Below the pieces are notes generated by a model that was not told the DNA's origin, made no database searches, and was given only the letters and a program-made list of their open reading frames with translations. A program made the translations under genes and the position numbers. From NCBI RefSeq assembly GCF_001280565.1, contig NZ_LGRO01000001.1, forward strand, positions 2,976,001-3,040,000: a stretch of DNA of 64,000 bases. The letters run 5' to 3'. The stretch is from Sulfobacillus thermosulfidooxidans. GTDB lineage: Bacteria > Bacillota > Sulfobacillia > Sulfobacillales > Sulfobacillaceae. Below are positions 36,428 through 61,012 of this stretch, one piece after another (the stretch's first letter is position 1; each line of letters starts with the position of its first letter).

Positions 36428-36841
36428 TCACTTGGAATGTTCAGATTTTTGCTGGTGGGTCCATGATTTCAGATGGTTTTCGAGAAGACTATTCATGTCG
36501 CGTTGCCAGCTTTCCCATATGGCGTTCAGTTTTTGGGTCAATAGGGTTTGCATGAGATGGATGTCATCATCACTGATGGCATTGAGCGAGGGTGCGCCGA
36601 TGATTTGGCGGATATGTTTAAACTGTTGATATTTTTTAAGCTGGTTGATATGGTCGGGTTCCAATTTTTCTAGCAGTTGTAGCCCGGCGGACAGAGCTAG
36701 CGAAATGACATGAGGCCACATGGATGAGGGAAACCGGCTCAAATATTCGGTGATGGTCGAATCAACAGGTAGCGCCTCAATGCTTAGCGTATGGTGGATC
36801 ATATCTAGCCGGGTGATTTTAATCGGAGTTTTGTTCTCCAT
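36428..36841 (-). CDS. Hypothetical protein coupled to the HipA-like gene
   Basis: 137 aa from the ATG at 36841 (a GTG two codons upstream is also possible). It is largely helical, with no membrane segment and no recognised motif; pieces such as PSSMWPHVISLALSAGLQLLE and HIRQIIGAPSL look like amphipathic helices. The start overlaps the end of the HipA-like gene by 23 nt, so the two are translated together and probably act together. The conserved coupling is the only functional hint. Confidence 0.65.
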   Translation of the reverse strand: MENKTPIKITRLDMIHHTLSIEALPVDSTITEYLSRFPSSMWPHVISLALSAGLQLLEKLEPDHINQLKKYQQFKHIRQIIGAPSLNAISDDDIHLMQTLLTQKLNAIWESWQRDMNSLLENHLKSWTHQQKSEHSK

Positions 36842-37883
36842 GGTCACTGGATACCCCCCGCTCGGGTGTGCTGGCTAAGGCTTCTTGCGCTGTGTCTTCA
36901 TTGTTAAGCTCAGCAGCAGGCAAAACCTTGTCACTATAACCCATCCCAGCATAAGGCCCATCGTTTCCGCTGGCACTGACGTTTACGTTTTGCTCCCCGT
37001 CTTTAGGTGGAATTTTATCAAACCCTTGGTGTGACAAATCAGAAGGGAATTTTAAACGAGCATCCTGGGTGGGGATAACGTCTTTAAGGCGTTTGTTGTG
37101 ATTCCACAGCCACTCTAAATGATGAGCTACTTTTTCCAATGTCTTTTGCCGATAGGACAGAAATTCCACAATAGCTTCCTGGCGTTCGGAGGAAAGCCCC
37201 CACTGTTTGGGTACACTATTGACAATATTTCTAAGATCCCATGTCGTGAGGGAAAGAATTTTTTCTAGTGCGGAATCAAATCGCAATGGGTAGGGAATGT
37301 CCCGAGCAATAGCGGTTAGGGGAGAGGGTAAAGGAAATTGGCGCCGGTAGCGCCGCAAACTTTCCATTGACCACAAAGGACCGCCAGGAAAGATGAAGCC
37401 ATGATCAATAATCATGAATTTCGAAGACGTGCCTTGAGGAATGCGTAAAATATGAGAAAATTTGACGTCGCGGTTAAAGAGCCATGATTCAAAGAGCGCG
37501 CATAACGGGAGTTGGGACCCATTTGATAGATCATGAACCTTATCCGTTCTTTTGATAGGACGAGCTTCGGCAATATAAAGTGTGCCAAACTGTAAGCCGG
37601 GCTGCCAGCGATACTTGGTCAGATACGGCATTTCCTTCAATTGAGACCATGACACATCAACCAAGACCACATCAGGAACGGGAACGCCAATGACCTGGCC
37701 TAGCAGGGTGCCGATTAAATCGCTGCATAAGCTGCGTGTCGTTTGCGGGTTATGTTGGAATTTGACATGCACAACACGACCATCTTCTAACCGCAATAAT
37801 AAAGGCTTGGATCCGCCGGAACCCTGGGGACGAATAAATGCGGCGGCTTTGACAATTTCCAGTGGATAATGCGAATCGCTCAT
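36819..37883 (-). CDS. HipA-like kinase-fold protein (HipA_2 type)
   Basis: About 354 aa from ATG 37883, which has AAAGGGG upstream; the open frame to 37964 lacks a ribosome site. The first 260 residues resemble the HipA-like kinase domain family (PF20613-type): IRPQGSGGSKPLLLRLEDGRVVHVKF gives a glycine-rich loop with a Lys strand, DLIGTLLGQVIGVPVPDVVLV follows, FESWLFNRDVK fits the catalytic-loop Asp/Asn region, and FMIIDHGFIFPG gives a DHG in the metal-binding position. The C-terminal 90 residues are low-complexity (Glu/Asn/Ser-rich). No HipB-type antitoxin is adjacent, so a classical toxin-antitoxin role is unlikely. Homologous proteins occur near spore and surface genes; this is an inference. 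Confidence 0.65.
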   Translation of the reverse strand: MSDSHYPLEIVKAAAFIRPQGSGGSKPLLLRLEDGRVVHVKFQHNPQTTRSLCSDLIGTLLGQVIGVPVPDVVLVDVSWSQLKEMPYLTKYRWQPGLQFGTLYIAEARPIKRTDKVHDLSNGSQLPLCALFESWLFNRDVKFSHILRIPQGTSSKFMIIDHGFIFPGGPLWSMESLRRYRRQFPLPSPLTAIARDIPYPLRFDSALEKILSLTTWDLRNIVNSVPKQWGLSSERQEAIVEFLSYRQKTLEKVAHHLEWLWNHNKRLKDVIPTQDARLKFPSDLSHQGFDKIPPKDGEQNVNVSASGNDGPYAGMGYSDKVLPAAELNNEDTAQEALASTPERGVSSDHGEQNSD

Positions 37884-37962: not shown

Positions 37963-38439
37963 ATGGATAAAGGTCGGGAGGAACCGGAAAAAAGTTCTGG
38001 CTCTTATGGTGCGAATCATGCCCAAGGAGAAAAACGCAGTCCCTTACAAGCCCGGTGGACGTCGTCATTGGACATGGGGAGCGTTGATAAACCGACGGAG
38101 CGCCCGGTGGATTCCAATGACCTTACCGGTTCAAACTCCTCTAGCAAGGACCAAGCCTCGGTGAAATCGCCACCACCCACTCATTCCCCGGATAGCAGTT
38201 CTAAGAAATTGGAGCCGGACAAAAATACGCCTGTGAATCCGTCTTCTTTGATTCATCAATTGCGAGACGTCGCGGCATTACTCGTACAGCTGGCTCAAAG
38301 CTTAGAACAGTTAGAAAATGTGTTGCACGCACATTCTGATCCTTTGCCGCCTAAAGAGCCTTCAGCCTCGAATTTGTCGCAGCTCGTGAAAGATCGTCCC
38401 GATTTACAAGCTCTGCTGCGCCAATACTTATTTAAGTGA
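37963..38439 (+). CDS. Low-complexity protein of unknown function
   Basis: 158 aa. Residues 1-90 are disordered (Ser, Lys, Pro, Asp-rich). Residues about 95-158 contain a likely coiled coil (LRDVAALLVQLAQSLEQLENVLHA) and a short C-terminal helix (DRPDLQALLRQYLFK). The C-terminal helix recalls small coat-assembly peptides, but no family is recognised. It is divergent from the HipA-like gene with only 79 nt between the starts, so both may share a promoter region. The ribosome site is weak (AAAGGA 13 nt upstream), so the start is uncertain. Confidence 0.5.
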   Translation: MDKGREEPEKSSGSYGANHAQGEKRSPLQARWTSSLDMGSVDKPTERPVDSNDLTGSNSSSKDQASVKSPPPTHSPDSSSKKLEPDKNTPVNPSSLIHQLRDVAALLVQLAQSLEQLENVLHAHSDPLPPKEPSASNLSQLVKDRPDLQALLRQYLFK

Positions 38440-38531: not shown

Positions 38532-38933
38532 TTACGAGCCCGAAGAAAAGCGTCCAATCAAAGGTAGGATGCGATCGAAGAAGGGAAGGCGGTCGATGCC
38601 TACCAGGTTGGAAATAGGTATAATCACTTGATCGCGGAATCCAAGGCTCACGCTGCCCGCAATGACGTCCCGCATGACAATAAAGTCACTGCCCACCTGA
38701 TATAGATTGCCTACCAAAGTCGAAGCGTTATCAACGGCTGAAGAAAGACTCACGCGAACATAATCTCCAACCAGAGAGGATAAATAGGCGTCAAAACTCG
38801 ATGGAATACTAGAGTCTTCCGATTCACTGGACGCATACGAATTTTGTTCGCCCAATAAAAATAACAGGGGCAATAAATCGCGCCGTTGACCTAATAATAA
38901 AAGCGGCAATAATTCTTCCCAAGATGTATTCAC
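38532..38933 (-). CDS. DUF2642-like protein with Leu-rich N-terminal peptide
   Basis: 133 aa. Residues 1-32 form a Leu-rich opening (EELLPLLLLGQRRDLLPLLF) ending LLGEQ. Residues about 48-130 look like the small barrel found in DUF2642 spore-coat-associated proteins (DYVRVSLSS, YQVGSDFIVMRD, VIIPISNLVGI). GTG start with AAGGAGG 8 nt upstream. The Leu-rich opening resembles the tiny peptides encoded just upstream on the same strand (39090-39224, 39252-39380), suggesting one surface or coat assembly unit. The DUF2642 match is by pattern, not by search. Confidence 0.6.
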   Translation of the reverse strand: MNTSWEELLPLLLLGQRRDLLPLLFLLGEQNSYASSESEDSSIPSSFDAYLSSLVGDYVRVSLSSAVDNASTLVGNLYQVGSDFIVMRDVIAGSVSLGFRDQVIIPISNLVGIDRLPFFDRILPLIGRFSSGS

Positions 38934-38999: not shown

Positions 39000-39050
39000 C
39001 CGGACCTAAGGACGCCCTAGGACTTTTCAGGGTATTGTCCTAAGGTCCGG
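39000..39050. repeat. Large intergenic inverted repeat
   Basis: Arms of 14 nt (CCGGACCTAAGGAC and GTCCTAAGGTCCGG, one mismatch) enclose 23 nt that contain a further small stem. It lies between the DUF2642-like gene and the tiny-peptide gene. No T-run follows on either strand. Confidence 0.55.
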
Positions 39051-39089: not shown

Positions 39090-39224
39090 TTAGTAGGAGC
39101 AAGAACGCGAACTACGGCTGCGAGGAAATTCTCCGACCAATAAGAGTAATAAGACTAAATCAATCGGGAAATGACGGCGATGATGGTGATGATGATGCGA
39201 TGAACAACTTTGGGATGGATTCAT
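39090..39224 (-). CDS. Tiny His/Leu-rich peptide A (44 aa)
   Basis: The minus-strand ATG at 39224 is preceded by GAGGAGGAG, 6 nt away, an excellent ribosome site for so short a frame. The peptide has a six-His run followed by RRHFPIDLVLLLLLVGEF and a Ser/Arg tail ending SCSY. The core RRHFPI and the Leu run also occur in peptide B at 39252-39380. The strong initiation signal and the paralogue argue that it is a real gene. A coat or membrane-associated peptide is plausible; no known family is recognised. Confidence 0.65.
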   Translation of the reverse strand: MNPSQSCSSHHHHHHRRHFPIDLVLLLLLVGEFPRSRSSRSCSY

Positions 39225-39251
39225 GATGGGCTCCTCCTCATAGAATGTCAG

Positions 39252-39380
39252 TTAAACAATCATACGCGAGCAAGAATAGGACGTGTATGATGAATGACGG
39301 TGTTCCTCCAACACCAATAGCAACAAAAGCAAGCCGATCGGAAAATGCCGGCGACCCCTATCATGATGTGCGTGGCTCAC
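39252..39380 (-). CDS. Tiny His/Leu-rich peptide B (42 aa), paralogue of peptide A
   Basis: GTG start at 39380 with AGGAGG 10 nt upstream, stop TAA at 39252. It reads SHAHHDRGRRHFPIGLLLLL, then EEHRHSS and a tail with YSCSRMIV. It shares RRHFPI, the Leu run and a Ser/Tyr/Cys-containing tail with peptide A, which starts 28 nt further along. The two therefore form a tandem duplicate pair on one message, probably continuing to the DUF2642-like gene. Confidence 0.6.
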   Translation of the reverse strand: MSHAHHDRGRRHFPIGLLLLLLVLEEHRHSSYTSYSCSRMIV

Positions 39381-39593
39381 CTTGCTAACACCTCCTGTCG
39401 TGGATCGACTTCACAGGCATACTATTCAACAATTTCCTTATGTGACACAAAATGGAAAAGATTTATGGAATGGCTTTTTAAAGCTATCGTATGGCGTCTT
39501 AGTCGAAACCATATTCCTGGAGGTTCTATTGAAACCCGCGTAAAGGCATGATAATGTAGCAAAAACTTAAAAATCTGGAAGGAGGCGCCCTGC

Positions 39594-58929: not shown

Positions 58930-59300
58930 TACCTGGTGAAATTCAGTGTGAGGGCGATGCCGTTACAATAAATGCGTCCGGTGCTGTCATGACCCTGACG
59001 GTGCAAAATACGGGTGACAGACCCGTTCAAGTGGGCTCTCATTTTCATTTTTTTGAGGTGAATAAGGCTCTTGACTTCGATCGGGAAAAAGCTTATGGCA
59101 TGCGGCTTGACATCCCAGCGGGAACGGCGGTGCGCTTTGAACCCGGAATCCGCCAAACGGTGACATTGACACCGATTAAAGGAGCACGCCGGGTTTACGG
59201 GTTAAATGGATTGACCGAAGGTCCTTTAGATAAAGAGGGGAATAAAGAAGCAGCTCTTGAACGTGCCAAACAACGCGGATTCTGGAGGCCAAAGTCATGA
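58926..59300 (+). CDS. ureB: Urease subunit beta
   Basis: 124-aa structural subunit. [16 protein letters not shown] opens the family pattern, followed by [37 protein letters not shown] and GLNGLTEG. Overlaps both neighbours by 4 nt, so ureA, ureB and ureC are translated together. Confidence 0.95.
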
Positions 59301-61012
59301 GTTATTCGATCGATCGTCACCATTATGCCCATTTATTTGGGCCGACTGTAGGAGACAAAATACGGTTAGCCGACACCGATTTGTGGGCTATGGTCGAAGA
59401 AGACCGAACGCTTTTGGGAGAAGAAGCCAAATTTGGCGGGGGCAAAGTTGTTCGGGACGGGATGGGGCAGGCCAGTTGGCATAGTTCCGCCCTGGGAGCA
59501 CCGGATTTAGTGATTACCAACGTGGTCATTATCGACTACTGGGGGATTGTCAAAGCGGATGTCGGCATTAAGGATGGACGGATTGTGGCAATCGGGAAGG
59601 CGGGGAATCCCGATATTATGGACGGAGTCGATCCCCGGTTAATTATTTCTCCCGCAACAGAGGTTATTTCGGCGGAAGGTCTTATTCTGACTGCTGGAGG
59701 TATTGATTCCCATGTTCACTGGATTACACCCGATCTCGCTCGCCATGCCTTAATGGCGGGTTTAACCACCTTGATTGGGGGAGGAACCGGTCCGGCAACG
59801 GGGACCAATGCGACCACAGCCACTCCAGGACCATGGAATATTACCCGGATGCTGGAAGCCATGAGTTCTTTTCCCGTCAATATTGGCTTAACAGGGAAAG
59901 GCAATTCGTCGTTTCCTGAACCGTTAGAAGAACAAATTGCCGCGGGCGCCATTGGTCTTAAACTCCATGAAGATTGGGGGACGACCCCCAGAGCGATTGA
60001 TACCTGCTTGAATGTTGCCGATGAGGCCGATGTTCAGGTAACAATTCATACCGATACACTCAACGAAGCGGGTTTTGTGGAAAACACGCTCGATGCGATA
60101 GGTGGACGCACCATCCATACGTACCACACCGAAGGTGCCGGTGGCGGCCATGCGCCAGATATTCTGCGCGTAGCATCTTTCGAAAACGTTTTGCCTTCTT
60201 CAACCAATCCTACTCGGCCTTATACGGTGAATACCCTAGCAGAACATTTGGATATGCTGATGGTCTGTCATCATTTGGATCCGAAACTGCCTGAAGACGT
60301 GGCGTTTGCAGATTCGCGCATTCGCGGGGAAACCATAGCAGCAGAAGATGTCTTGCATGATTTAGGCGTTTTATCGATGATGTCTTCGGATTCGATGGCT
60401 ATGGGACGTATTGGTGAAGTGATTATTCGAACATGGCAAACAGCTGATAAAATGAAAAAGGAACGAGGTCATCTACCCGAAGATTCTGCCCGAAATGACA
60501 ATTGGCGGATTCGCCGATATGTAGCCAAATATACCATTAACCCTGCGATCACGCATGGGATTTCCCGTTTAGTTGGGTCGGTTGAAGTCGGAAAATGGGC
60601 TGATTTAGTGCTATGGAGCCCAGCGTTCTTTGGAGTTAAGCCCTCGATAATCATTAAAGGCGGGATGATTGTGGCCGCTCAAATGGGTGATGCGAATGCC
60701 TCGATTCCTACCGTGGAACCGCAAATGATGCGTGAAATGTTTGGGGCTCAGGGACTTGCGCCTTATGAGCTGTCGTGGACATTTCTCTCTAAACAAGCTT
60801 ATGTTTCTGAGCATATTCAAAAGCGCATAAAGCGGCGAGTCTATCCCGTAGAAAATTGCCGGAGTATTACTAAAAAGTCGATGATGCTTAATGACCAAAC
60901 CCCTCACATCGAAGTCGATCCAGAAACCTACCGGGTTTATGTCAATGGTGAACGGATTACGTCCCAGCCAGCATCGGTTTTACCTATGGCTCAGCGGTAC
61001 TTTCTGTTTTGA
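59297..61012 (+). CDS. ureC: Urease subunit alpha (catalytic)
   Basis: 571 aa, full length. Nickel site: the HVHW histidines near residues 137-139, the carbamylated Lys (about residue 222) in GLKLHEDWG, the HTDTLNE and [15 protein letters not shown] histidines, and the catalytic flap His in [23 protein letters not shown] (Asp ligand) and the conserved C-terminus MAQRYFLF complete it. Nickel insertion is by the UreEFGD proteins downstream. Confidence 0.97.

Follow-up and report, generated by a model that had tools for sequence, protein, structure and literature searches.

The window analysed here, a stretch of 64,000 nucleotides, comes from a genome of 3.83 Mb; the named relatives of this genome belong to the Sulfobacillus-type Bacillota. 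The locus under study contains the following features, listed from the higher to the lower coordinates:

39418..39446, minus strand: promoter-like element GTCAC-N14-GAATAGTATG, preceding peptide a
39252..39380, minus strand: tiny peptide a, 42 aa, GTG start, MSHAHHDRGRRHFPIGLLLLLLVLEEHRHSSYTSYSCSRMIV
39090..39224, minus strand: tiny peptide b, 44 aa, ATG start, MNPSQSCSSHHHHHHRRHFPIDLVLLLLLVGEFPRSRSSRSCSY
39000..39050, minus strand: highly stable stem-loop lacking a T run, located between peptide b and F0
38532..38933, minus strand: F0, 133 aa, with twin Leu segments (ELLPLLLLGQRRDLLPLLFLLG), a Ser/acidic linker and a C-terminal predicted Sm/LSm domain
37963..38439, plus strand: F2, 158 aa, convergent, with a low-complexity N-terminus and a conserved C-terminus ending LLRQYLFK
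36819..37883 (open frame to 37964), minus strand: F1, HipA_2-like kinase
36428..36847, minus strand: F3, 139 aa, overlapping the end of F1

Elsewhere in the window, positions 59449-59742 (minus strand) match the Rfam family 5_ureB_sRNA with 57 bits and lie antisense to the gene for a urease alpha subunit (59297-61012, plus strand). This match most likely reflects the conserved urease coding sequence and not a real sRNA.

Proteins this short, at about 40 residues, routinely escape notice, and a preliminary description of this DNA had picked out the two minus-strand frames of 44 and 42 aa on account of their strong ribosome sites and their common RRHFPI, Leu run and Ser/Cys/Tyr tail. All of these are present as described: the ribosome sites are near-perfect (AGGAGG at 39391-39396 for peptide a and GAGGAGG around 39231-39239 for peptide b), and the two peptides match one another with an E of 2.2e-5, from which we conclude that they are homologous. 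A short-ORF filter requiring a ribosome site, a length of 30-75 aa, a hydrophobic run of at least 5 residues and at least 40% H/R/S/C returned peptides a and b only from both strands of the whole 64 kb, and from 243 kb of other DNA it returned a single ORF, itself a family member. Comparison of G000 with G003, its nearest relative, gave codon-position differences of 0/0/4 for peptide b (44-mer), the protein being identical and the four changes synonymous, and of 6/2/10 for peptide a (42-mer), with a dN/dS of 0.22. Over all peptide pairs dN/dS was 0-0.22, and it was 0.03-0.17 in the other within-genus pairs. Selection, synteny and the background scan together rule out chance ORFs. Peptides a and b are real, overlooked protein-coding genes under purifying selection, and they are paralogues within an unnamed peptide family. 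Neither has a match in Pfam, NCBIfam or PHROGs and conserved homologues exist, in agreement with the original suggestion of an undescribed gene family.

The search for relatives covered both strands around each F0 copy (17 well-matched F0 loci) and identified 22 family peptides, with at least one at each of the 17 loci, in genomes from two families of one order, one of them the Sulfobacillus-type family. In addition to the identical protein of G003, there are orthologues of peptide b in eight genomes (G005, G006, G002, G014, G022, G024, G025, and G026). The peptide profile matched F0 carriers only, apart from a weak match with an internal stop in G077. The peptide is co-directional with and upstream of F0 at 10 of the 17 loci, divergent from it in six genomes (G001, G004, G011, G041, G015, and G023), and downstream (3') of it in G029. 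In three sister species (G005, G006, and G002) the first peptide copy is weak or decayed and the second intact, and we therefore consider the second copy, peptide b, to be the core member. Remnants of peptide a, with a weak start, an altered frame or an internal stop, lie upstream of peptide b in these species (L097, L098, and L099). Two members stand out individually. The G029 peptide (L109, 7609-7809, plus strand) carries CCC directly behind its Leu run and a tail of HSHSHS repeats that is exceptionally long, and G015 has a family member unlinked to F0 (L112, 2350-2522, plus strand; 57 aa, with an SD and a PIDLLLLLLLL core) directly 3' of a sigma-70-like ORF.

The family peptides are 38-67 aa long and all have the same build: they open with an H/R/S-rich segment, continue with a single stretch of 7-10 hydrophobic residues and close with a tail rich in R and S. 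Several have C-terminal variants of (V)PxIRS, and the net charge, His excluded, is +2 to +14. The preliminary description had proposed that they could be coat or membrane components. It is true that short length and a Leu run between positive charges are what one might look for in small membrane-active toxins or membrane proteins. However, the hydrophobic run reaches at most 7-10 residues in 23/23 members, which is too short to span a bilayer as a type I toxin-like membrane peptide would, and the peptides are held in fixed synteny with a multi-gene cassette. Judged by sequence, an ordinary transmembrane peptide is thus unlikely, and we rate the membrane reading as a whole as very improbable. 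The coat half of the proposal is plausible, if indirect, and we return to it below.

The promoter-like element upstream of peptide a is invariant at TGTCAC...TGAATA..ATG across five aligned genomes, is retained with the peptide a remnants of the three sister species, and is found in front of the divergent peptides in G001 and G004 as well. Its general form is GTCAC-N14..16-GAATAnnATG. The 3.8 Mb genome contains two copies of the pattern GTCAC-N13..17-GAATANNATG, one upstream of peptide a and one within an isocitrate-dehydrogenase-like coding frame; the latter copy was disregarded. The element has roughly the geometry of a sigma-K promoter, to which it is a loose fit. When set against the upstream regions of spoIVA, SASP and dpaA genes (sigma-E, sigma-G, and sigma-K) it was unlike the sporulation promoters inspected, and it did not match the elements upstream of dpaA and spoIVA in the same genus. 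A separate GGAAC-N16/17-CCGTATAGTGA-like element lies upstream of the dpaA-like (dipicolinate synthase A-like) gene (L149-L155) and is strongly conserved across the genus.

The stem-loop between peptide b and F0 has a predicted energy of -29.5 kcal/mol for the surrounding 71 nt (z -5.3), and at the equivalent position the sister species have a strong stem whose sequence has changed. This hairpin, together with the His6 and Leu runs of the frames, raises the question as to whether the two peptides serve F0 as regulatory leaders, acting as His/Leu codon attenuators. We give this next to no credence. The peptide's divergent orientation in six loci and its downstream position in one rule out a leader or attenuator, and there is besides the unlinked copy in G015; further, the tails are conserved at the amino-acid level under purifying selection, and the downstream gene, F0, is not biosynthetic.

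As had been observed previously, F0 begins with Leu segments; in an alignment of 17 homologues, LLPLL is invariant in the second of these. An AlphaFold2 model of F0 has a helix at residues 46-52 followed by five strands, with high confidence only in the C-terminal domain. That domain matches Sm/LSm structures with a Z of about 11 over 65-70 residues, and superpositions are mostly within 1.5-2 A over about 66 residues, leading us to predict an Sm/LSm fold, i.e., a five-stranded barrel preceded by a helix. The designation of F0 as DUF2642-like was sustained by profile-profile comparison (hhalign, 86% with PF10842, score 32.9 against a maximum of 16.3 in 100 column shuffles), but not at the Pfam gathering score, at which no F0 homologue matched DUF2642; nor does any protein of its own genome have a Pfam match to PF10842. 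The relation thus appears to be a remote one, at the profile level only. F0 resembles DUF2642 (YuzF-like) and Sm/LSm proteins in that its C-terminal domain aligns with the former and has the LSm-like fold, and it differs from them in falling below the Pfam cut-off and in having the additional Leu segments and Ser/acidic linker. When the F0 profile was searched against PDB sequences, only insignificant matches resulted. Two further F0-like LSm-domain proteins (L092 and L093, in G023 and G015) lack Leu segments and are encoded outside the cassette. A phage origin of F0 was considered and rejected, as no phage record matched it.

Beyond the preliminary description, which had extended to the two frames and F0, our analyses identified a wider cassette of a kinase and two further proteins around the Sm-like fold, in addition to the divergent peptide copies. 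The order of F0, convergent F2, F1 and F3 is kept while the outer flanks differ between genera; F1 is syntenic in 16 genomes, F2, which has no family assignment, in 15, and F3 in 10. Every genome with a well-matched F0 has F1, which also occurs in one incomplete member of the genus and, as weak matches, in a few distant genomes.

F1 matches PF20613 (HipA_2) with an E of 2e-12 and 47.2 bits relative to a curated cut-off of 27. The catalytic-loop and metal-binding motifs, N-x-D-x-K-x-x-H and DHG, are invariant in 16 genomes, as are residues K40, N136, D138, H143 and D159-H160-G161; the active-site residues of F1, as read from these alignments, are intact. The F1 model has the PKL fold, with structural matches to PI4KII, CtkA, Fam20A/Fam20C (Golgi casein kinase) and HipA/HipT. 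Fold and active-site motifs are those of HipA_2 kinases, CtkA and HipT, from which F1 differs in having no antitoxin-type partner and in its fixed association with F0 and the peptides.

Membership of F1 in the HipA_2 family, its resemblance to HipA/HipT folds and its matches to a PADLOC candidate-defence profile and in PHROGs would fit a defence or toxin-antitoxin module, in which a toxic HipA/HipT-like kinase is controlled by the peptides or F2, as would the patchy distribution of the cassette, which is absent from about half of the spore-forming family. Against this, none of the cassette proteins is a HipB-type or HTH partner, and known Hip systems have no place for F0 and its Leu segments. 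Moreover, F0 was absent from phage records, the search of plasmids yielded a single weak match to F1, and four sister genomes have the cassette at one chromosomal site. We regard such a module as improbable.

We consider unlikely, albeit deserving of more weight, the possibility that the peptides serve the spore or cell envelope as structural or metal-binding (His/Cys) parts and are not phosphorylated, and that F1 targets F0, F2 or lipids instead. The peptides have 3-15 His and up to five Cys each, the top structural match of the F1 model is the type II PI4-kinase, and the genus inhabits acidic, metal-rich environments (PMC4378227). Conversely, what stays constant across the family is the Arg/Ser content and the hydrophobic run; the number and spacing of the His residues vary, and several members have no Cys. 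PI4K, moreover, is one among several PKL-fold families matched.

Sulfobacillus isolates sporulate (PMC4378227). Every carrier with a well-matched F0 is positive for spoIVA and by that marker an endospore former, although this constitutes weak evidence since spoIVA was found in 139 of the 154 genomes of the class. In G004 the cassette is followed by a gerA-type germination operon (gerAA/AB/AC-type), and what follows it in G001, where the contig ends, is a GerAB-like fragment whose similarity to the G004 gene was read by eye. At the other 15 of the 17 loci, where some neighbours are without annotation, no identified spore gene adjoins the cassette. To our knowledge, spore coats beyond those of Bacillus and Clostridioides are almost unexplored, and the literature yielded nothing usable about the coats of Sulfobacillus, a role of DUF2642 in spores, or small spore proteins rich in His and Leu. 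The sporulating hosts, the gerA-type neighbour in one genome and the fragment in another, and a gene set like that of CotB/CotG/CotH make the coat reading plausible.

In Bacillus subtilis the kinase CotH, its Ser/Arg/Lys-rich substrates and CotB are encoded in one gene cluster; CotH, a PKL-fold protein distantly related to Fam20C, phosphorylates Ser in Ser/Lys/Arg-rich regions, and phosphorylation of CotG patterns the outer coat (PMC7821199). The cassette shares with cotB/cotG/cotH a clustered PKL-fold kinase, Ser/Arg-rich basic substrate-like proteins, a small beta-barrel-like protein and an endospore-forming host. It differs in that its kinase is HipA_2-like and outside the CotH family (no CotH model was among the Pfam matches of F1 at E up to 1, and only a distant common fold relates the two), its peptides are much smaller (38-67 aa) and have a Leu run, their short, Arg/Ser-rich tails contain no tandem Ser/Lys/Arg repeats, F0 lacks an SKR tail and carries twin Leu segments, and F2 and F3 have no counterpart. 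Because the kinase family differs and the tandem repeats are missing, we propose the cassette as a functional analogue and not as a member of the CotB/CotG/CotH system. With a provisional B. subtilis CotB sequence, the LSm profile of F0 aligned with the CotB repeats at 44% (hhalign), and the N-terminal part of this sequence gave three DUF6897 matches and a weak DUF2642 match, which we treat as a lead only. A search of the phylum with PF10842 and PF21838 for CotB-type members found few, none of them clearly CotB.

The micro-protein family at this locus is real and undescribed and belongs to a conserved kinase cassette; as to function, we offer a reasoned guess. By analogy, the cassette may take part in building and modifying the spore surface, as an assembly module comparable to cotB/cotG/cotH with an LSm-like scaffold, Ser/Arg-rich peptides and a kinase, a reading to which we assign a probability of roughly 40%. 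We infer expression during sporulation, a coat location, oligomerisation of F0 and a role for the peptides as substrates of F1. The cassette would be made late in sporulation and assemble on the spore surface, where F0, as an LSm-like oligomer, would serve as scaffold and its Leu segments, perhaps along with the acidic Ser linker, would hold the basic peptides via their short Leu run. From F1 the Arg/Ser tails would receive phosphate on Ser, which would switch their charge and set their packing, in the way that CotH acts on CotG and CotB. We suggest tentatively that this would be an independent, non-CotH instance of a phosphorylation-patterned spore surface, with an LSm-fold scaffold bearing Leu docking segments, Ser/Arg/His-rich peptides and a HipA-family kinase recruited from toxin/defence-type kinases. 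If so, phosphorylation of Ser/Arg-rich surface proteins would have evolved more than once, with different kinases, and HipA-family kinases would have a developmental role.
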